From positions 1,674,001 through 1,738,000 of the forward strand of contig NZ_QMEK01000001.1 of assembly GCF_003390845.1 (NCBI RefSeq): a stretch of 64,000 nucleotides of DNA. The letters are read 5' to 3'. The stretch comes from Tropicimonas sp. IMCC34043 (GTDB lineage: Bacteria; Pseudomonadota; Alphaproteobacteria; Rhodobacterales; Rhodobacteraceae). The notes beneath the pieces were generated by a model, which saw only the letters and a list, made by a program, of their open reading frames with translations, did no database searches and was not told where the DNA came from. The translations under genes and the position numbers were made by a program. The number at the start of each line of letters is the position of its first letter. The stretch's first letter is position 1. Shown piece after piece: positions 3,276-63,840 of this stretch.

Positions 3276-4985
3276 TCAGAACAGGAAATAGCGCTGCGCC
3301 ATCGGCAGGACGCGTGCCGGTTCGCAGGTCAGCAATTCGCCATCGGCGCGAACCTCGTAGGTCTCGGGGTTGACCTCGATCTTCGGCATCGCCGCGTTCA
3401 TCACCATGTCGGCCTTGCCGATGCTTCGCGTGCCCGAAACCGCCACCGTGTCCTTCGCCAGCCCCAGCGACGCGCCGATCCCGTCGGCCTGGGCAGCGGC
3501 CGAAACGAACAGCACCGCCGAGCGTTCGACGGCCCGGCCGAAGGCACCGAACATCGGCCGGGAATAGACCGGCTGCGGCGTCGGGATCGAGGCGTTGGGA
3601 TCGCCCATCTGCGCCACCGCAATGCTGCCGCCAAGCAGCACCATCTCGGGCTTCACACCGAAAAATGCAGGATTCCACATCACCAGATCGGCGCGCTTGC
3701 CCTCCTCGACCGTGCCGATATGCGCCGACATGCCCTGCGCGATCGCCGGGTTGATCGTGTATTTGGCGACATAGCGTTTGACGCGGACATTGTCGTTGTC
3801 GCCGGTCTCTTCGGCCAGACGGCCGCGCTGCTGCTTCATCTTGTGGGCGGTCTGCCAGGTGCGGATGATGACCTCGCCAACCCGGCCCATGGCCTGACTG
3901 TCCGACGAGATGATCGAAAACGCCCCCATGTCATGCAGGATGTCCTCGGCCGCAATCGTCTCCTTCCGGATCCGGCTTTCGGCAAAGGCCACGTCCTCGG
4001 GGATCGACTTGTCGAGGTGATGGCAGACCATGAGCATGTCGAGGTGTTCCTCGAGCGTGTTCACGGTGTAGGGGCGTGTGGGGTTGGTCGAGGACGGGAT
4101 GACATTCGCCTCGCCCACCACCTTGATGATGTCCGGGGCATGGCCGCCGCCCGCACCTTCGGTGTGGAAGGCATGGATCGTCCGGCCTTTGAAGGCGGCG
4201 ACGGTGTTCTCGACAAAGCCGCTTTCGTTCAGCGTGTCGGTGTGGATCATCACCTGCACGTCCATGTCGTCCGCAACCGACAGGCAGCAGTCGATGGCGC
4301 CCGGGGTAGTCCCCCAGTCCTCGTGAAGCTTCAGCGAACAGGCACCGGCGCGCACCATCTCGACCAGTGCGGCGGGCTGGCTGGCGTTGCCCTTGCCCGA
4401 CAGCCCGATGTTCATCGGGAAGGCGTCGAGCGCCTGCAGCATGCGCGCAAGATGCCAGGGCCCGGGGGTGCAGGTGGTCGCCAGCGTGCCATGCGCGGGG
4501 CCCGTGCCGCCGCCCAGCATCGTGGTGACACCCGAATGCAGCGCATCCTCGATCTGTTGCGGACAGATGAAGTGAATGTGGCAATCGAATCCGCCAGCGG
4601 TCAGGATCCGGCCTTCCCCTGCGATCACCTCGGTGCCGGGGCCGACAATGATGTCGACGCCGGGCTGGGTATCGGGGTTGCCCGCCTTGCCGATCTTGGC
4701 GATGCGGCCATCCTTCAGCCCGACGTCGGCCTTGTAGATGCCGGTGACGTCGAGGATCAGCGCATTGGTGATGACCGTGTCGACCGCCCCGTCGGCCCGC
4801 GTGACCTGGGATTGCCCCATGCCATCACGGATCACCTTGCCACCGCCGAATTTTACCTCTTCCCCATAGGTTGTAAGGTCTTTCTCAACCTCTACCACAA
4901 GATCTGTGTCGGCCAGCCGAACCTTGTCGCCGGTGGTCGGACCATACATCGCGGCATAGCTTGCGCGGGAAATGCGGGCGGGCAT
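3276..4985 (-). CDS. ureC: Urease subunit alpha (catalytic)
   Basis: 569 residues, the normal length. UreC hydrolyses urea to ammonia and carbamate at a di-nickel centre. Visible signatures are the N-terminal [17 protein letters not shown]; the metal-binding [13 protein letters not shown]; the carbamylated-lysine motif in [13 protein letters not shown]; nickel-binding histidines in [10 protein letters not shown] and [15 protein letters not shown]; and the mobile-flap histidines in MVCHHLDK. Nothing essential looks missing. In the operon it follows ureB after two non-urease genes and precedes a DUF1127 gene. Confidence 0.98.
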
Positions 4986-21732: not shown

Positions 21733-21800
21733 TGTTGTAAATTGCGCCCATTTCGGGTAGGATTTACAATAAATGTTGTAACTTGGGCCAAATGTTGTAA
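21733..21800 (-). promoter_or_regulatory. Left cluster of TGTTGTAA boxes (putative integrase arm sites)
   Basis: TGTTGTAA occurs at 21733, 21774 and 21793, with a partial TTACAA at 21764 in the other orientation. The same word, as TTACAACA, occurs three times at the right end of the island. The third left box ends 4 bp before the integrase ATG, so binding there would also affect integrase expression. Confidence 0.55.
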
Positions 21801-21804
21801 CCCC

Positions 21805-22320
21805 ATGGGTACCATCATCAAGCGAAAGCGCAAAGACGGCACGGCCTCCTGGCTTGCCCAGATCGCCGTTCGGCGGGCTGGAAAAACCGTCTGGCGCGAA
21901 AACCGCACATTCGAGCTGCGCTCGACCGCCGCAGCCTGGATCGAGAAGCGCGAGAAGGACCTCGCCAAGCCCGGCGCCCTTGAAAATCTGCCCATCGGAG
22001 AGACACGCCGCCGCGAAGTGACCCTCGGCGACGCCATCGACAAATATGTCGAAGACAGCGCGAAGGCAATTGGTCGGACCAAGGCGCAGGTGCTGAAAAG
22101 CATCAAGGAGTTCGATATCGCGAACAAGCTGTGTGCCCAGATAGACAGCGCCGACATTGTGAGCTTCGCCAAGGAGAAGCTGAATACCGGTGTCTCGCCG
22201 CAAACCGTGTCGAACTACCTGTCTCATCTCAGCGCAGTCTTGACTGTCGCCGGTCCGGCCTGGAACTATCCGCTAGACGAGCGCGCGATGCGCAATGCGA
22301 TGATTGTCGCGAAGAAGCTA
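21805..22320 (+). pseudogene. Truncated tyrosine-type integrase (dusA-specific), cut by an IS
   Basis: The reading frame from ATG at 21805 gives MGTIIKRKRKDGTASWLAQIAV, the N-terminal arm-binding domain of an Arm-DNA-binding phage-type integrase. A core-binding SAM-like domain follows (SADIVSFAKEKLNTGVSPQTVSNYLSHLSAVL) and the frame stops at codon 172 where the IS begins. The catalytic domain with R...HxxR...Y is absent. Removing the IS and one TA does not restore it: the sequence after 23184 does not encode an integrase domain. The integrase should therefore be inactive. Confidence 0.85.
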
Positions 22321-23184
22321 GGTTCCAGACTCATTGATCGTCAAAGCCAGAACATGACGGTTGCGGCGAGGGCGATGGCGGACAGGAAGACTTTGGGGCA
22401 CCTGTCGTAGCGGGTGGCGATGCGGCGCCAGTCCTTCAGCCTGCCGAACATGATCTCGATCCGGTTGCGCCTTTTGTAACGGCGCTTGTCGTAGCGGATG
22501 GCCTTGCCACGCGACTTCCGGCCCGGGATGCACGGACGTATTCCCTTGTCTTTCAACGCATCCCTGAACCAGTCGGCGTCGTAGCCCCGATCGGCGATCA
22601 GCCAATCGGCGGCGGGCAGGCTGCCCAAGAGCGCCGCCGCGCCGGTATAGTCGCTGACCTGGCCCGCGGTCATGAAGAACCTCAAGGGGCGGCCCTTGGC
22701 GTCCGTGACAGCGTGCAGCTTCGTGTTCAGACCGCCCTTCGTTCGCCCGATCAAGCGCCCGCGCTTGTCGTCGGACCCCCCTTTTTTGCCCGCAGGCTGG
22801 AGGCCGTGCGGTGCGCCTTGAGATACGTCGCGTCGATCATGACCGTCTTTTCTTCGGTGCCTTCGGACGCCAGCCCCATCATGATCCGGGCGAAAACTCC
22901 CATGTCGCCCCACCGCTTCCATCGGTTGTAAAGGGTCTTGGGCGGGCCATACTCCCGGGGAGCATCACACCACCGCAATCCATTGCGATTGATGAATATT
23001 ATTCCACTCAGCACACGCCGGTCATCGACCCGAGGCTTCCCGTGGCTCCTCGGAAAGAACGGCTTCAGCCGCTCCATATGCGCATCGGTCAGCCAGAAAA
23101 GGTTGCTCATCATCACCCCCGTCAGTCCGGGAGCTTGAATCACGCAGGCCGGGCGGCCTCAAGCAGATCAATGGGTCCTGACCC
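22321..23184 (-). mobile_element. IS5-family (IS427-type) insertion sequence, 864 bp
   Basis: The ends form an imperfect inverted repeat (left GGTTCCAGACTCATTGATC; right, reverse complement, GGGTCAGGACCCATTGATC). It is flanked by TA on both sides (22319-22320 and 23185-23186), consistent with a TA target duplication. It carries one transposase in two overlapping frames. It interrupts the island integrase. Confidence 0.85.
22341..23113 (-). CDS. IS5/IS427-type transposase, two frames joined by -1 frameshift
   Basis: Frame A begins MMSNLFWLTDAHMERLKPFF (start 23113) and ends near 22751. Frame B covers the rest to 22341, with GLNTKLHAVTDAKGRPLRF, DWLIADRGYDADWFRDAL and the C-terminal RRYKRRNRIEIMFGRLKDWRRIATRYDRC. 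DDE residues are visible as MIDATYLKAH (frame A), ADRGYD and the Glu of RNRIEIMFGRL (frame B). The frames meet at a slippery A6G6 run near 22776-22787, where a -1 shift gives KKGGSDDKRGR. This programmed shift is typical of the IS427 group, so the transposase may be functional. Confidence 0.85.
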
Positions 23185-25713: not shown

Positions 25714-27732
25714 TCACTCGGCGGCAGTCCGGGCGAAGGCGTCACCGGCGACGGGATCATCTTCCCCCGTGGGGTCGGAATCTCCGATAGCCGGTTCGCC
25801 GCCGTCTTCCGCCGATTGCGCTTCGCCGGTGTCGGCGTCGTCGATCAATTCGATCTCAGGCGCGTCCTCTTCCGGCAGGGGCGGCGTGCGCAGTGGGTCG
25901 GGTAGCCAGCCGGTGCCGACGAGCAAGTCCTCTGCAGCGGTCACCATCTCGGCCTTCTTCAGCCCCGCGATCCGATCAGCGGCGTCCTCACCCTTCGCCT
26001 CGCGCACGGCTTCGAGGATGCGCGCCTTGGTCACGCGGCCGAGGTAGCTGTCACCCGTCGCCGTCCAGCCCGCCTTGGCCATGTCGAGCCGAACGATCCC
26101 GGCCAGCACATCCGCACGCGCGATGGCGCGCGGACGGCGCTGATAGGGGTCGTGGACGGCATTGACACTCATCGCCACGCAATGGGCGAAGAGCGCCTCG
26201 CGGCTGCAGCTGTCGAACTCGGTCAGCGCATCCCAGAGGTCTTCTGGCGCTTTCGGCAGGTTCCGTGCCCAGGTCTCGTGACGCTGGTCGATGGCCTGCG
26301 CATAGGCCGTGTCGCCGAGGCCCGGCACCTGCGATCCGAACCCCGCGTTACGCGGTTCGATCTCGACGCAGCTGTCGACGGCGTAGCGATAGAAGAGCCG
26401 CATGACCATCGCGTGCAGGGCCGCGAGGAAGGCGACCTGCGGGTCCTGGGCCAGCGCATTGCGCAGCGCCAGGGTGCGATGGGCCGTCAGTTCCATGACG
26501 AGGCGGTCGGAAAGCGGCTTGAGGCCGTCATCCTCTTCCTCCTCGTCCGAGGCCGACGCAACGGTGTTGTCGGAGTCCTCGACCGGCGCCGCTTCCCGTG
26601 CGACCTCGCCGGTGTCCTCCACCTCCTCGACCGGCTCGTCTTCGGGCCGCACATAGCCGCGTTCGACCCGCAGCCGCCCGGAGCTGTCGATGCTGACGAA
26701 GGCTCCTGCCAGCGCGAGGTCTTCCGCCTCGAACCGGATCGGACGTGCCTCGTCGGCCTCGAGCGCGTCGTATTCGGTCTTCAGCGCCTGGTAGCTGGCG
26801 GCTTCCTCGTCGCTCATCGGCACCGCCTCGCCATGGACCCGGCGCATCCCGAAGGTGTGGCCGTAGGGGAACTCGGTATCGACCTCGACCCATTTCCAGC
26901 CCTCGGCGTGCACCGTCTCCGCCTCCTCGGACAGTTTCTCGCGCACCATGACGTCGAGCAGGGCCGCATCCTGCAGCCAGCCGCCATCGTCCTGCTGGAA
27001 CAGGTCGCGCAGTATCTCGCCCCCGGCCTCGACATAGTTATCGAGTCCGACAAACCGCGCCCGCTTGTCCGTGGCCCGCACCGCACCCTCGGTCAGCATG
27101 CGGCGGATTTCACAGGGCTGCCGCGAATAGTGGCGCTGCACCGCCTCCCAAACCTGCTCCTGCCGCGCGTGATCGGGGTTGACCGTGAAGGCCATGAGTT
27201 GGTCTAGCGTCATCGCCTCCTCGGCATAGGCGTCGAGCAGCGACGGCGCGACGGCGGCGAGCTTCAGCCGCTGTTTGACCACGCTGGCCGAGACGAAGAA
27301 CGCCGCGGCGATCTCCTCCTCGGTCCGGCCCTTCTCGCGCATCGCCTGGAAGGCGCGGAATTGGTCGAGCGGATGCAGCGGCGCGCGCTGGACGTTCTCG
27401 GCAAGGCTGTCCTCCTCGGCGAGCCCATCGGTGCGCACGATGCAGGGCACGAGCGCGGTCTTGTTCATGCGCGTCTGCTTCACGAGCAGTTCCAGCGCCC
27501 GGAACCGCCGCCCGCCGGCGGGGATCGTGTACATGCCGGTCTCGGCGCCATTGTCATCCAGCACGGGCCGCACGGTGATGGAACTGAGCAGCGTCCGCCG
27601 CGCGATGTCCTCGGCCAGTTCCTCGATCGACACGTCGGCCTTGACGTGGCGCACGTTCGACTGGCTGAGCATCAGCTTGTTGAAGGGGAGGTCGCGCGAG
27701 GCGCTGAGAGTGATCTTCTGTTGCTTGGTCAT
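25714..27732 (-). CDS. ParB/Srx-like DNA-binding protein of the island
   Basis: 672 residues. The N-terminal ParB-like nuclease/CTPase fold shows LPFNKLMLSQSNVRH, the loop IPAGGRRFRALELLVKQ and VPCIVRTDGLAEEDSLAENVQR (the ENxxR-type box). A helix-turn-helix follows (EEEIAAAFFVSASVVKQRLKLA). A long C-terminal extension with an acidic low-complexity linker (SDEEEEDDG) and a helical domain makes it much larger than chromosomal ParB. Similar large proteins are common on plasmids and integrative elements in this group. There is no ParA partner in the island, so it may act in gene control rather than partition. Confidence 0.88.
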   Translation of the reverse strand: MTKQQKITLSASRDLPFNKLMLSQSNVRHVKADVSIEELAEDIARRTLLSSITVRPVLDDNGAETGMYTIPAGGRRFRALELLVKQTRMNKTALVPCIVRTDGLAEEDSLAENVQRAPLHPLDQFRAFQAMREKGRTEEEIAAAFFVSASVVKQRLKLAAVAPSLLDAYAEEAMTLDQLMAFTVNPDHARQEQVWEAVQRHYSRQPCEIRRMLTEGAVRATDKRARFVGLDNYVEAGGEILRDLFQQDDGGWLQDAALLDVMVREKLSEEAETVHAEGWKWVEVDTEFPYGHTFGMRRVHGEAVPMSDEEAASYQALKTEYDALEADEARPIRFEAEDLALAGAFVSIDSSGRLRVERGYVRPEDEPVEEVEDTGEVAREAAPVEDSDNTVASASDEEEEDDGLKPLSDRLVMELTAHRTLALRNALAQDPQVAFLAALHAMVMRLFYRYAVDSCVEIEPRNAGFGSQVPGLGDTAYAQAIDQRHETWARNLPKAPEDLWDALTEFDSCSREALFAHCVAMSVNAVHDPYQRRPRAIARADVLAGIVRLDMAKAGWTATGDSYLGRVTKARILEAVREAKGEDAADRIAGLKKAEMVTAAEDLLVGTGWLPDPLRTPPLPEEDAPEIELIDDADTGEAQSAEDGGEPAIGDSDPTGEDDPVAGDAFARTAAE

Positions 27733-27793
27733 CGGGATATCTCCGCGACAGGCCAGCCGGGAGCCTCTCTCCCGACCTCCAAACCCGTCACGG
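27733..27793 (-). promoter_or_regulatory. Structured leader RNA of the ParB-like gene
   Basis: On the minus strand CCGTGACGGG (27793-27784) can pair with CCTGTCGCGG (27752-27743). Enclosed is a hairpin GGGAG / CTCCC with a 5-nt loop AGAGG (27773-27759). The outer stem ends 10 nt before the start codon and includes part of the ribosome-binding region (GCGGAG). The same arrangement with compensatory changes precedes the DUF932 gene. Confidence 0.6.
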
Positions 27794-27913
27794 AAAACCC
27801 GGCACCCCTCTCACTCTGCGGGCCAAAGTGCTTTGATTGTACAAATGATAAGAGTTTGCCAACATGCGTTTTCGGCGCGATGTGTTGCGGCTATCTGCAC
27901 TCGGCTTCGGATT

Positions 27914-28750
27914 TTACGCTGATGCTTTGTGCTGCCCGAGCGCCTCTTCCAATACGTCGAACGGTATACCCGGCTTTTGAATTCCCATCCCAATTGCCAA
28001 AGAACTCTTAACGGTGATGACGTTGTCAATTCTTGAAATCCTATCAATTAGATTTTGACCATCTTCCAAGTCGAAGATCATACATTTCAACAGAAAGTCG
28101 ATCTCTCCGTTAAGCATGCTGCAAGCACGGACTTGCTCTATTTTGGCACAACTAGCTTCAAAGTCTGACAGCGCCTTTTCCGATCGGTCCTTCAATGCCA
28201 GCATTACAAAGAGTATCGATGAAACGCCAACTCTCTCCGGATCTACATCTGCCCAATAACCCTTTATGAAACCGTGCTCTTCAAGAAGCCTTACCCTCTG
28301 AACCACGGAAGATGACGAAACACCCAATGATTCAGACATTTCTTGCGCTGTTCGCCGACCATCATCTTGTAGGAGCTGTAGAATTAGCCTGTCAATTGGA
28401 TCTAGCCTCGCCTTCAATGGCCTTTCTTCGGAAATGCCATCAGTCTCTGCACGCAGAGCGGTCGGCCGCCTAAATACCTTCGGGCCCTTTACTGACTTTG
28501 GATTTGTGCCCAGGATAACTGGAAGTTGATCTTCATAAATGTAGATACCGTCAAGAATAGCACCAAGAAACGAGACACTTGACAAATCGCTCCTCCGAAA
28601 ATCCATATCAGACCAATCAAAACCCTCGAAGAATTCCTGCGGATTTAATCCAACTCGTTCTACTGCAGCAATTGGGTCCGTCATATCTCCGTTGACAATC
28701 TCAATGACGGCATTGGAGCTTTCTTCGTCGAAACTTAACTTTCTCCTCAT
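27914..28750 (-). CDS. Pentapeptide-like segment fused to an Lrp/AsnC regulator
   Basis: 278 residues, clearly AT-richer than flanking genes. Residues ~25-75 contain DPIAAVERVGLNPQEFF followed by a short pentapeptide-repeat-like run (DWSDMDFRRSDLSSVSFLGA). After a linker come an Lrp/AsnC helix-turn-helix (LDPIDRLILQLLQDDG, VSSSSVVQRVRLLEEHGFI) and a RAM-like ligand domain (VGVSSILFVMLALKDR, CSMLNGEIDFLLKCMIFD). Ordinary Lrp proteins are ~150 residues and have no such head. The gene overlaps the upstream gene by 4 bp (ATGA), so the two are one unit. I do not know this architecture. Confidence 0.75.
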   Translation of the reverse strand: MRRKLSFDEESSNAVIEIVNGDMTDPIAAVERVGLNPQEFFEGFDWSDMDFRRSDLSSVSFLGAILDGIYIYEDQLPVILGTNPKSVKGPKVFRRPTALRAETDGISEERPLKARLDPIDRLILQLLQDDGRRTAQEMSESLGVSSSSVVQRVRLLEEHGFIKGYWADVDPERVGVSSILFVMLALKDRSEKALSDFEASCAKIEQVRACSMLNGEIDFLLKCMIFDLEDGQNLIDRISRIDNVITVKSSLAIGMGIQKPGIPFDVLEEALGQHKASA

Positions 28751-29664
28751 GCGATTGCCTCACCAATGCTAAGCTCGATGAAGTCATCGCCAGCCTTTAA
28801 CCGATCGCGAATCATTTTGGCGATTATGCGCTTCCTAGCGTGGCTTTGCTGTATCGGCTCCAACTCATTGCTAAAATCTGGATGGAAACTCACATCCATG
28901 TCGGCCTGAAATGCTCCAATCGATATTTTTACGCTCGCGCCTTTTCTACAGTCTATCTTTGCAAGTCTCGCATTGGTGATCAATCCAATCAAGTATCCCG
29001 CATCTGACGGCTGTACCACCCACTGCTTCTCCTCACCGGGCAGTTCCTGAAGAAAAACACCGTCAACCGAGCCGTTTTCCGGAGGACTGCTTGGGACCAA
29101 ATTGGAGAGAGACTGGACAACTTGTCCATCTGTTTTAAGAATAATGCGTGCTTCGCGAAATCCAACTTTTGCTCTGCCAAGTGTGAACTTCACAGTTCCT
29201 CGGCCACCAGTCATCTCTGTATCTACTTCGATGGTTTCGCTCAGCCTAAAATGGATACTTGTTGCCGACACCTCGTACCGCTCAATTTCGTCAATTGGGG
29301 CGTTGGTGAGGAGTTTTAAGGCTAGGGATCGAAAATGGATAGCTTGAGTTGTATTTCTGGTCTGATCCTTGAACAAGCCATCTTCCGTTGGATCACAGCC
29401 TGTCACTTCATGGATGGCTGCACACACTTTAATACTAAGGCTTTTTGTTGTCTTTATTTTTCCAGTTCGCCAGTCACTCCAAGTCTTGCGAGATGTCGGC
29501 AGACCCAAGCCTGATCTTTTTGAACCAAAGGTACGAGACGCAATTTGATCGTAGAACGCTCTTGCGGCGTCGTTCTCGATCTGCCCATGAAGCTGTTTCC
29601 ATTTATCGAATGCTTCGGCCGCGCGGATAGGGCTTACTGATACAAGCTTCTGATTGTTAGCCAT
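28747..29664 (-). CDS. Unknown protein paired with the pentapeptide-Lrp fusion
   Basis: 305 residues from ATG at 29664 (MANNQKLVSVSPIRAAEAFDKW); the earlier ATG at 29766 is less likely, since its extra residues look like intergenic translation. Residues ~40-80 (SRKTWSDWRTGKIKTTKSLSIKVCAAIHEVTG) resemble a Cro/XRE-like DNA-binding helix set. The remainder is mostly beta-strand-like and soluble, with no catalytic motif I recognise. It is AT-rich like its partner. Translational coupling suggests the two work together, for example as a regulator pair or a two-gene cargo system. Confidence 0.65.
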   Translation of the reverse strand: MANNQKLVSVSPIRAAEAFDKWKQLHGQIENDAARAFYDQIASRTFGSKRSGLGLPTSRKTWSDWRTGKIKTTKSLSIKVCAAIHEVTGCDPTEDGLFKDQTRNTTQAIHFRSLALKLLTNAPIDEIERYEVSATSIHFRLSETIEVDTEMTGGRGTVKFTLGRAKVGFREARIILKTDGQVVQSLSNLVPSSPPENGSVDGVFLQELPGEEKQWVVQPSDAGYLIGLITNARLAKIDCRKGASVKISIGAFQADMDVSFHPDFSNELEPIQQSHARKRIIAKMIRDRLKAGDDFIELSIGEAIA

Positions 29665-29812
29665 GATCTCATAGCCCTCGCGCATGAACCCCGGACGCTG
29701 CGTTAGCATATCCGGACCGTTGCTTTGCAATCCAGACGCTGAGAGCCTCGATGCCGGACGCCTCAACAGCGAGATCTAGCCTACAGTGAAACAAGGTTGA
29801 AGGCGAAAGATT

Positions 29813-29893
29813 ATGACACCGTATGAATGGACGATGCTGATCCTGTCGCTAGCGATGTTGATAGTATCGATATTGAGCGTCTTGGGAACGTGA
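29813..29893 (+). CDS. 26-residue hydrophobic peptide, type I toxin-like
   Basis: ATG at 29813 after GAAGGCGAAAGATT encodes MTPYEWTMLILSLAMLIVSI plus six more residues (LSVLGT): a short polar head and one membrane helix. This is the layout of 'putative holin-like' type I toxins (Fst/TxpA-like). A strong hairpin follows 8 bp after the stop. It lies opposite to the flanking genes in the AT-rich cargo block. No experimentally known homologue is claimed; the call rests on size, hydropathy, ribosome binding site and terminator. Confidence 0.45.
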   Translation: MTPYEWTMLILSLAMLIVSILSVLGT

Positions 29894-29899
29894 GCAAAC

Positions 29900-29935
29900 T
29901 GAGTTGGCGGTCGTGGCATCGTGGCCGCCAACTCA
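29900..29935 (+). terminator. Hairpin after the small peptide gene
   Basis: TGAGTTGGCGG (29900-29910) and CCGCCAACTCA (29925-29935) form a perfect 11-bp stem with a 14-nt loop. No long T-run follows on either strand. Such stable hairpins commonly end type I toxin mRNAs and can protect them. Confidence 0.6.
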
Positions 29936-29978
29936 AACTGGCCTAAGAAGGTGTAGAGACATGATCGCGGTGAAGTGA

Positions 29979-31175
29979 TCAAGGCCAATAACTGGCCAGC
30001 AACGCCTTCGCCTTCCCCTCCATCACCAACCGCGCATCCTGCTGCGGCTTCGACCTGGCGACCGCGGTTATCCCCTGCACGAAGTCGAACACGCTCTCGG
30101 GCGGGCGGCCTTCCTCGGCCGGCACCGTTTGGACAATCCGCCCCGTTTCTGCCTTCGAGAAGCCGCGTTTGCGCAGGAAATCCTGCCGGTCCTCGTCCGT
30201 CCGTGCGACGATCTTATCCCGCGCGGCGCGGATGCCGTCGATGAAGGGCGCGGGCGAGGACTCGGCGAAGCGGCTTAGCGCCGGGGCGGCCTCGTGGGCG
30301 AAGCGCGACGCGGCGTACTTCGAGTGCCGGATGGTGATCTCCTGGAAGTACTCGACGCCCCAGAGGTTGCGGTTCTGGCAGACCGCGCGCAGGAAAAAGC
30401 TGGCGATGCCGAGCGTCTTGGCTCCCACTTTCGAATTCCAGCAATAGAACCCCCGGAAATAGAGGTCGGGCGTGCCGTCGGGCAGCAGCCCCGCCTCGAT
30501 CGGGTTCAGGTCATCAACGAGGAACAGGAACACGTCGCGGTCGGAGGCGTAGAGCGTCGTCGTCTCTTTCGTAACGTCAACGCGCCGGTTGTAGGCACCC
30601 GTCGACCAGTCGAGTACGCCCGGCACCTTCCAGCGCGTGTCGCCGGTGCCGTTGCCCGCAATGCGCTGGACGGCGGAGACCAGTTCGTGATCGTAGATGC
30701 GGCCGTAGTCAGGGCCGGTCACCGCACGCAGCTCTGTGCAGCCATCCGCGACCTCCATGGTCTTGATCTGCTCGGCCCAGTGGTTGGTCAGCTCGTATTG
30801 CAGGTTGATCCCCGCGAGCGGCGCGGGCAATTGCCGCAGATAAGCTGCAGGCGCGCCGACGAGGCTCGAGAGCTGGCCAAAGCTCCAATGCGTCGGCGCG
30901 ATCGGTTCATCCTCGCCTGGCAGGACAAGTCCCAGCTTCTCCGGGTTGTCCCGATGCGCCTCGACCCGGATCGCCGCGCTCTCCACGGTGCGCGTCCGGC
31001 TCCGATCCGCCCGGCCCTTGACCGATGCGAAGAGATCGTCGAGCGACAGATACCGCTCGTCATCCGGCCGCGAGAACCACTCGGACGACACGCGGTCCAC
31101 GTTCGTTCCGCGCGACACATCCACCTTGTAGCCGCCGCTCATGTCACGCCCGGCATCGATAATCTCGGTGTACAT
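29979..31175 (-). CDS. DUF932 domain protein
   Basis: 398 residues from ATG at 31175 (MYTEIIDAGRDMSGGYKVDVS), preceded by GGAGGTTTCCC. It has the DUF932 layout: HWSFGQLSSLVGAPAAYLRQLP, TELRAVTGPDYGRIYDHELV, the central YASDRDVFLFLVDD, RGFYCWNSKVGAKTLGIASFFLRAVCQN and the C-terminal helical part. Members are common on plasmids and integrative elements and resemble phage/plasmid-like proteins of the TIGR03299 type. The molecular role is not established. Confidence 0.85.
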   Translation of the reverse strand: MYTEIIDAGRDMSGGYKVDVSRGTNVDRVSSEWFSRPDDERYLSLDDLFASVKGRADRSRTRTVESAAIRVEAHRDNPEKLGLVLPGEDEPIAPTHWSFGQLSSLVGAPAAYLRQLPAPLAGINLQYELTNHWAEQIKTMEVADGCTELRAVTGPDYGRIYDHELVSAVQRIAGNGTGDTRWKVPGVLDWSTGAYNRRVDVTKETTTLYASDRDVFLFLVDDLNPIEAGLLPDGTPDLYFRGFYCWNSKVGAKTLGIASFFLRAVCQNRNLWGVEYFQEITIRHSKYAASRFAHEAAPALSRFAESSPAPFIDGIRAARDKIVARTDEDRQDFLRKRGFSKAETGRIVQTVPAEEGRPPESVFDFVQGITAVARSKPQQDARLVMEGKAKALLASYWP

Positions 31176-31185
31176 TGGGAAACCT

Positions 31186-31233
31186 CCGCGACGGGCGCCG
31201 GAGGCCTCTCCTCCAGCCTTCAACCCGTCACGG
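31186..31233 (-). promoter_or_regulatory. Structured leader RNA of the DUF932 gene
   Basis: On the minus strand CCGTGACGGG (31233-31224) pairs with CCCGTCGCGG (31195-31186). The enclosed hairpin is GGAGG / CCTCC with loop AGAGG (31214-31200). Compared with the ParB-like leader, the inner stem keeps its pairing although the bases differ (GGAGG/CCTCC here, GGGAG/CTCCC there), and the loop is identical. The outer stem ends 10 nt before the ATG, close to the ribosome binding site. Confidence 0.6.
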
Positions 31234-31456
31234 CCCTCCCTGCCCGCCTCTGACTCTCGGAGAACCGGTGAACGTCCGCAGGAAGTCCGCCGATTTGATC
31301 GCATTCTGTCCTATTTCTTCGCCCCCTTCTGCCGCCGCTTGCAGCCCTTTTCACGATCAAGGTCCCTCATCCCGCCAAACGCCGCCGCCCGCTCGCATTG
31401 ATGGAGAACGTGGCTGAGGCCAGGATGTGGAGCAGAGAAACCACCGAGACTGACCG

Positions 31457-32800: not shown

Positions 32801-32831
32801 GTTTGTTGCCAGGACTGATACGCTGACCGGA

Positions 32832-32942
32832 CCGAGGGGTGCCCTGACAAGGGGTTGAGATACTGATGGCGGGGCGGTCACGATGGCCGCAGGCAGCGCA
32901 GTGACCCTTTGAACCTGATCCGGATCATGCCGGCGAAGGGAC
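32832..32942 (+). promoter_or_regulatory. TPP (thiamine pyrophosphate) riboswitch
   Basis: The conserved halves are present in order: GAGGGGTGCCC then GGGTTGAGAT, and after a variable stem GTGACCCTTTGAACCTGATC followed by CGGATCATGCCGGCGAAGGGA. This is the THI-box consensus. It lies 48 bp before a Nudix gene, which should be repressed when TPP is abundant. Confidence 0.93.
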
Positions 32943-32990
32943 AGGACCGCCGTGCTCTCTCCCTTGCCGGCCTCAGCACAGGAGGTCGCA

Positions 32991-33449
32991 ATGCCCATCC
33001 CCCAAACTCCCGGTCCGGCCGACCGCCCGATTGCCGCGACCATTACCGTTGTCATTCGCGACGGCCGGGTGCTCCTGGTGCGGCGTGCCAATCCGCCCGA
33101 TGCCGGGCGTTGGGGCTTTCCCGGAGGCAAGGTCGAACGCGGCGAGACCCTGTTCGAAGCGGCGCTCCGCGAGTTGGCGGAGGAAACCGGCGTGACGGCG
33201 CAGGCCCTGCGCATCGTCACGGCGGTGGACGCCTTCGACCACGCACCCGAGGGCGCGCTTCGCCACCACTTTATCCTGGTTGCCGTGCTGTGCCGATGGA
33301 CCGCGGGCGAACCCGTCGCCAGTGACGATGCCCTCGACGCCCGTTGGATCGCGCTTGAAGGTCTTGCCACCGCCGATCTGGCACTCAGCCTCGACGTTGC
33401 CGAGGTGGCAGCGCAGGCTGCCGCGCTGATGCGAGGGGCACAATCATGA
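32991..33449 (+). CDS. Nudix hydrolase under TPP riboswitch control
   Basis: 152 residues from ATG at 32991, with GGAGG 5 nt before it; an in-frame GTG at 32952 is less likely. It has a perfect Nudix box GGKVERGETLFEAALRELAEETGV (residues ~45-68), which sits in a fold starting AATITVVIRDGRVLLVRRA. Nudix enzymes such as E. coli NudJ/YmfB hydrolyse thiamine-pathway diphosphates; the riboswitch suggests a thiamine-related substrate here (inference). It is followed at once by what looks like a thiD stump. Confidence 0.88.
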   Translation: MPIPQTPGPADRPIAATITVVIRDGRVLLVRRANPPDAGRWGFPGGKVERGETLFEAALRELAEETGVTAQALRIVTAVDAFDHAPEGALRHHFILVAVLCRWTAGEPVASDDALDARWIALEGLATADLALSLDVAEVAAQAAALMRGAQS

Positions 33450-63420: not shown

Positions 63421-63840
63421 TTGCGCGGACGGCCTGTAAGCCGGATTCTGTCCGGGAAGTCCGGCCCTGCGGCCGTTCTTCCCTGGATGACCATTCCTCT
63501 CGGCCCGCCGTTGCCGGCGGGCTCCAGCTGCCTACCCGACCTGCCTGGGGCTGAAGCGGCCCCGGGGACATGCCCCGCGGAGGTCCTATTCGGCATTGCT
63601 CCCGGTGGGGCTTGCCATGCCAGAGACGTTGCCGCCTCTGCGGTGGGCTCTTACCCCACCGTTTCACCCTTACCCCTCGCAGGTCCGCAGCGCGAACCTC
63701 GAAGGGCGGTCTGTTCTCTGTGGCGCTTTCCGTCGGGTTGCCCCGCCCGGGCGTTACCCGGCACCGTTGCCTCAGGGAGTCCGGACTTTCCTCGTCCCCG
63801 GCATTACACCGGGACCGCGGCCATCCAGCCATCCGCGCCG
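63421..63840 (-). ncRNA. rnpB: RNase P RNA (bacterial class A)
   Basis: On the minus strand: GGACGAGGAAAGTCCGGACTCC (the 5' universal motif, here split), AGAACAG, the GGGTAAGGGTGAAACGGTGGGGTAAGAGCCCACC block and the 3' universal region ending GACAGAATCCGGCTTACAGG. Ends are set by P1 pairing of GCGCGGATGG (63838-63829) with CCGTCCGCGC (63432-63423). It cuts the 5' leader off tRNA precursors. It begins about 10 bp after the amidase stop. Confidence 0.95.

Follow-up and report, generated by a model that had tools for sequence, protein, structure and literature searches.

A candidate cis-acting leader RNA upstream of unrelated mobile-element genes in Alphaproteobacteria

Messenger RNA (mRNA) hairpins that lie over ribosome sites and are bound by repressors include phage coat-protein operators and ribosomal-protein leaders, and the radC RNA motif (RF01754) precedes radC, anti-restriction, integrase and similar genes. 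Excerpts of Weinberg 2010 (PMC2864571) list the proteobacterial radC motif as certainly RNA, with a probable cis-regulatory role, and place the STAXI motif (RF01728) near SSB, topoisomerase, anti-restriction and integrase genes. Frpo/ssi single-strand promoters, described in excerpts of PMC11541004, fold and drive plasmid genes of the leading-region type. Here we analyse two hairpin leaders, both on the minus strand, upstream of a ParB-like and a DUF932-like gene in a 64,000-nt stretch of Tropicimonas sp. IMCC34043 (contig NZ_QMEK01000001.1, positions 1,674,001 to 1,738,000; the whole stretch is called the window), and the family to which they belong. We propose that this family consists of structured 5' leader RNAs through which a group of mobile-element genes is jointly controlled at translation initiation, a reading to which, from comparison of sequences, we assign a probability of about 0.6.

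By gene company, radC RNA is the nearest of the described elements: RadC-like and anti-restriction genes stand behind the leader too, and such DNA-handling genes follow 2 (RadC-like) and 75 (ArdC) of the 196 leaders counted. Its length and architecture are unlike those of the leader. The 149-position RF01754 model gave no match on leaders, even among matches up to E 10, and its 24 weak matches in six leader-bearing plasmids and two viral records neither pass the cut-off nor lie on a leader (judged by comparing coordinates, with the best viral match checked separately). Repressor-bound mRNA hairpins resemble the leader in their conserved loop and bulge and in a foot covering the Shine-Dalgarno sequence; they differ in that the leader's binding partner is only putative and one leader serves many unrelated element genes. 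The STAXI motif is similar in its anti-restriction gene company, but consists of repeated pseudoknots and belongs to Enterobacteriales (excerpts of PMC2864571), and it gave no match in Rfam scans of the leader loci. Frpo/ssi elements, too, are folded and lie upstream of entry-phase plasmid genes, but Frpo, as described in excerpts of PMC11541004, acts as DNA and contains -35/-10 elements, whereas the leader is predicted to fold as sense RNA with the Shine-Dalgarno sequence in its stem. An Rfam scan, which the earlier note on this DNA had called for, found no Rfam 15 family that covers the leader at gathering level; matches at E up to 10, some of which overlap leaders (mir-4529, dinG, scr4677), were far below cut-offs and were rejected. 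No description of the leader was present among the open-access literature matches listed, a search that did not extend to subscription papers or to a 2017 catalogue of RNA motifs, and the only open-access paper containing the 10-mer of the outer helix is unrelated. The leader is new in the sense that it is absent from Rfam 15 and that no description was found in the literature searched.

The two hairpins reported in the earlier note are present in the window, with identical CCGTGACGGG arms and AGAGG loops. The ParB-like leader as a whole (27730..27829, minus strand, as are all features of both leaders) is a covariance-model match with the ATG at its end. It comprises a 5' box, AGAGTGAGAG (27808..27817), the 5' arm of the outer helix P1, CCGTGACGGG (27784..27793), the inner hairpin P2 (27755..27777, loop at 27764-27768), the 3' arm of P1, CCTGTCGCGG (27743..27752), and the Shine-Dalgarno sequence GGAG, the GG of which is within P1 (27741..27744); the ParB-like gene (25714..27732, minus strand) encodes 672 amino acids (aa). 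The DUF932-like leader (31173..31269), also a covariance-model match ending in ATG, has the box AGAGTCAGAG (31248..31257), the P1 arms CCGTGACGGG (31224..31233) and CCCGTCGCGG (31186..31195), the P2 hairpin (31197..31217, loop at 31205-31209) and the Shine-Dalgarno sequence GGAGG, with its first GG within P1 (31183..31187). Its gene (29979..31175, minus strand) encodes 398 aa counted from the conserved start, and has a Pfam DUF932 match below the cut-off. In both leaders the boxes were assigned from sequence and family alignment, the P1 arms from sequence and folding, P2 from folding and covariation, and the Shine-Dalgarno sequences from sequence and family-wide pairing. The spacing to the start codon is equal, as had been claimed, with the ATG 10 nt beyond the hairpin end, while the AGAG box ca. 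25 nt upstream of P1 and the location of the Shine-Dalgarno sequence within the foot of P1 had been overlooked. Minimum free energies of the hairpins alone were -35.7 (ParB-like) and -35.9 kcal/mol (DUF932-like), with z scores of -5.6 and -4.6, and none of 200 shuffles equalled them. The P1 10-mer by itself is unremarkable (9 places at one mismatch or less versus 11.2 expected), and since it occurs at chance level, it is the complete element that carries the case. The two leaders are 3.4 kb apart in the window versus ca. 1.4 kb in relatives such as L177 and L180, so that the segment 27914-29766 looks like an insertion; on its minus strand, between the DUF932-like and ParB-like genes, there are an open reading frame (ORF) for an AsnC/Lrp-type regulator (Pfam) and a second ORF.

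Members of the family were collected with a pattern made of the two P1 arms and with covariance models. Among 385 genomes of the class, the pattern occurred at 13 places in nine genomes, and 12 of these places are members (L008 is not), while the reversed pattern, used as a control, gave zero matches in the same genomes. At least 120 stretches of the genome collection contained the pattern. In 133 loci, 149 matches were distributed between 102 members and 47 non-members, several of the latter being palindromes in other phyla. The founding set took in only those pattern matches that had an ATG 4-25 nt downstream; loci L055, L058, L104, L109, L115, L124 and L126 were removed, and 70 rows were left after removal of near-duplicates. 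The covariance model yielded 202 hits (195 with ATG, one with GTG, six other), and counts of 196 members omit L111, where a contig end cuts the leader, and five weak hits with E of 0.0011-0.05 (L073, the second of L105, the third of L167, the second of L188, and L196). A model built from 43 ArdC leaders of other genomes found the window leaders at 80.8 bits (E 2.4e-21) and 76.7 bits (E 4e-20), and also found leaders of other gene families (59 matches in 34 sources searched); its rows had been gathered through the window P1-arm pattern, and the independent part of this test is the box, bulge, P2 and loop.

The covariance model matched 28 of the 385 alphaproteobacterial genomes at 60 places, two of which (L195 and L196) are weak and look spurious, with no real gene behind them. 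Matches were found in 34 of 398 genomes drawn from the phylum, all of the same class or family (the share of other classes in the draw is not given). In the genome of strain IMCC34043 itself, the strong matches number two, both of them the window leaders, and a further two are partial (E 2.4 and 8.4). Members above 60 bits were present in two of 20 pattern loci from viral contigs. Named hosts include Bradyrhizobium, Mesorhizobium, Paracoccus, Sphingomonas, Caulobacter, Telmatospirillum and Roseomonas, and some are metagenome-assembled.

The conserved element is ca. 90 nt long and has the order box, P1, one-sided bulge, P2, AGAGG loop, Shine-Dalgarno sequence and start codon. In the 70 dereplicated members, a AGAGTGAGAG-like box is followed by a spacer of ca. 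14 nt and by P1, CCGUGACGGG(U)/(G)CCYGUCGCGG; the bulge is 5 nt on the 5' side only, P2 has ca. eight pairs and carries the AGAGG loop, and GGAGA and the start codon come after the stem. Eight columns of the box, and none upstream of it, are at least 90% conserved in this alignment. When ParB, DUF932 and 185-aa members were anchored on the box, information was ca. 0.1-0.2 bits per base over 110 nt upstream versus 1.6 in the box, the latter value arising partly by construction. By a lenient test, AGAG was located 36 nt or less upstream of P1 in all 102 pattern-found members (the box is not in the pattern). An ATG stood 9-11 nt after P1 in 101 of the 102, the remaining one running off its contig; the ATG is absent from the pattern, but membership was judged by overlap with matches of the model, which holds ATG columns. 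Across the 196 model matches, the start codon was 8-11 nt after P1. Ca. 20-90 nt upstream of the box, many ArdC loci (L005, L009, L017, L062 and others) have another conserved block, which is rich in GC, contains two possible hairpins and ends CCCCGCAACGCCCCC. Leaders of a 128-aa family (L071:3707-3802, L086:2395-2491), which have a separate possible hairpin at the position of the AGAG box and another P2 loop, can be classed as a divergent subtype.

The larger alignment and covariance model for which the earlier note had asked revealed strong covariation in P2. Double-sided changes occurred at seven of its eight pairs in the 70-row alignment. In two sets of model-collected members, whose alignments lean towards the model, pairing was seen in 95.7% of 1127 cells and in 97.7% of 2566, and the covariation scores were 0.41 and 0.34 versus 0.03-0.12 for slid partners. 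A purpose-written, R-scape-like, tree-based null (133 rows, 60 null alignments each way, three rows and duplicates omitted) returned three pairs at E<=0.05, or two when column rates were kept, all of them in P2 and none outside the structure. Counted over 190 rows, there were 604 G-U cells, 45 A-C cells and 56 other mismatches, and because G-U is far above A-C, the RNA of the coding strand would be the strand that folds. Of the 70 pattern-found rows, 68 had the wobble U-G as their fourth P1 pair, though the pattern allowed U-A; this preference was weaker in model-collected rows (32/60 and 112/136), where U-A was the next type. We conclude from these patterns of substitution that the element folds as RNA on the coding strand.

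The 196 counted leaders precede 76 ParB-like genes, 75 ArdC genes, 20 DUF932-like genes and 13 genes of a 185-aa family, and the others are found before six genes of the 128-aa family, two RadC-like genes, one AlpA gene and three others (genes were assigned by BLAST cluster or by a motif; four broken ones were judged by eye). These genes belong to plasmids and integrated elements, and ArdC is an anti-restriction protein. Six whole plasmids carry 3, 7, 8, 3, 6 and 3 matches, one of which is weak (E 0.03). In the annotated plasmids, the usual order is leader-ArdC(-DUF2958) and leader-ParB-like, followed by genes for helicase, toprim and DUF2493; these last had no reported leader match ahead of them, bar one weak one, and in one record conjugation genes come next. 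The 185-aa family (L093:6795-7349 and relatives) is modelled confidently (predicted local distance difference test, pLDDT, 88); Pfam, NCBIfam and PADLOC gave no match to it, and neither did PDB folds at E<=0.001.

Linkage of the leader to its gene was followed with 41 ParB-like matches that start within the first 19 query residues (later-starting ones, e.g., G105 and the second G361 place, were omitted). All 26 relatives that share 50% identity or more, among them the protein of the window itself, have the leader, versus one of 15 below 50%, and 24 of the 26 leaders are within 4 nt of the projected start, the other two being 19 and 25 nt off. The leader is thus linked, as judged by these alignments, to one ParB-like clade.

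Half of the Shine-Dalgarno sequence lies in the foot of P1, at a workable distance from the start codon. Pairing predictions for the 70 members gave unpaired probabilities of 0.00-0.02 for its GG and 0.33-0.44 for the following AGA. No terminator-like site and no sigma-70-like promoter were found near the two window leaders. Because the GG is paired and neither of these signals is there, the fold most likely sets translation initiation, and we consider action at this step probable. A transcription attenuator was rejected: the window leaders have no terminator hairpin with a U run, and in the family alignment AG and the start codon come after the stem. The folded leader would occlude the ribosome-binding site and keep the ribosome off. 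A trans-acting partner, a protein or a small RNA, would read the AGAG box, both P1 arms, the bulge and the AGAGG loop, and would set how often the foot of P1 opens. That such a partner exists is suggested by conservation in sequence of the box, both P1 arms and the loop; that it serves the element rather than host genes is suggested by the fact that no further strong copies occur in the Tropicimonas genome. Crude ORF clustering of 38 stretches singled out no regulator (ParB-like ORFs were present in 25 and toprim in 11). The earlier note had put forward the ParB-like or DUF2493 product as a possible binder. No binding domain is claimed for the ParB-like protein because its predicted structure is of low confidence (mean pLDDT 68, predicted template modelling score 0.37).

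Our preferred guess at the partner, still a doubtful one, is an element-encoded, RNA-binding repressor that gives entry-phase expression. Made by the resident element, it would keep this single fold shut in front of every establishment gene (the ArdC, ParB-like, DUF932-like, RadC-like and unnamed genes of alphaproteobacterial plasmids and integrated elements), and these would be quiet in an established host. Its absence from a new host would release all of them in a burst of translation after entry. Excerpts of PMC7213743 report that ArdC of plasmid R388 is needed in the recipient and not in the donor; loss of a repressor on entry fits with ArdC working in the recipient.

The same inverted repeat could instead work at the DNA level, as an operator to which the ParB-like protein or another such regulator binds, with RNA folding incidental; KorB-like control of several operons is a case of this kind. 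Conservation of the P1 arms and AGAG box in sequence, beyond pairing, would suit an operator, as would the finding that no gene accompanies the leader more often than the ParB-like one, which itself bears it. We nevertheless think an operator unlikely, since P2, a mere spacer under such an arrangement, covaries, G-U far exceeds A-C, the bulge is on one side only and the spacing to the ATG is fixed; the near-constant U-G at the fourth P1 pair, where U-A was allowed, argues the same way, less so in model-collected rows. Function as single-stranded DNA during conjugation, with RNA polymerase starting on the entering strand as at Frpo/ssi, appears highly improbable. The gene company (anti-restriction, ParB-like) does resemble that of leading regions, where Frpo promoters fold and drive such genes (excerpts of PMC11541004), but every sense-strand G-U would be an A-C mismatch on the entering template, P1 ends 8-11 nt from the ATG, and no -35/-10 elements are seen at the two window leaders.

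A small RNA of host or element origin, with a seed rich in pyrimidines, might pair with both the AGAG box and the AGAGG loop, thereby opening or closing the ribosome site. Both segments are purine-rich and conserved, and the loop is predicted to be open (unpaired probability 0.94-0.99 in the 70 members), whereas for the box the same predictions show only partial opening; on balance we regard such a small RNA with scepticism. We give next to no credence to a mobile repeat or chance palindrome without a link to genes, of which the earlier note had named the former as what would refute its claim. In favour of such a reading are the 47 non-member pattern matches, several of them palindromes in other phyla, but members are tied to start codons (the 101 of 102 described above) and to few gene families, and the genome of origin has only its two strong copies. 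The proposal of a cis-regulatory RNA or protein-bound leader stands on these comparisons, given covariation, the start-codon link, the non-dispersed occurrence and the unrelated gene families, and the element is very probably a cis-acting RNA leader.

Several observations weigh against control of translation by one conserved fold. P1 is nearly invariant, and its pairing is hardly testable by the tree-based null; the 70 founding rows share an identical 5' arm by choice of pattern. No sigma-70-like promoter that would mark the 5' end of the transcript was found near the two window leaders. A stricter box pattern was failed by 18 of 196 members, including all six leaders of the 128-aa family, and the box is therefore not universal. 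The start codon itself is only partly paired (unpaired probability 0.30-0.65 in the 70 members). An extra helix adjoining the AUG, P0, is present in only some members: in 141 dereplicated members of the 196, duplex energy was -6.2 kcal/mol for own pairs versus -5.6 for swapped pairs (0/500 shuffles), and P0 is not claimed as a conserved part because this control takes no account of relatedness and pairing is almost absent from many members. The R388 ArdC result, finally, may not be transferable to these relatives.

Elsewhere in the window, a thiamine pyrophosphate riboswitch (32825-32959, plus strand; Rfam, 59.1 bits) lies directly upstream of an ORF in the 32952-33449 frame, the product of which is NUDIX hydrolase-like by eye. 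At 21742-23143, an integrase-like N-terminal fragment runs into an apparent insertion sequence (by eye) with its transposase in two overlapping frames. Rfam matches also correspond to class A RNase P RNA (63421-63836, minus strand) and the small RNA 5'-ureB (4545-4832, plus strand).

If structured leaders of this kind do control translation initiation, one leader fold would mark a mobile-element regulon across many alphaproteobacterial families, several genes of which are of unknown function. The leader sequence would help in locating establishment and anti-defence genes on plasmids whose leading regions are poorly mapped, and the leader raises the testable claim that these genes may be controlled at translation, not by special promoters.

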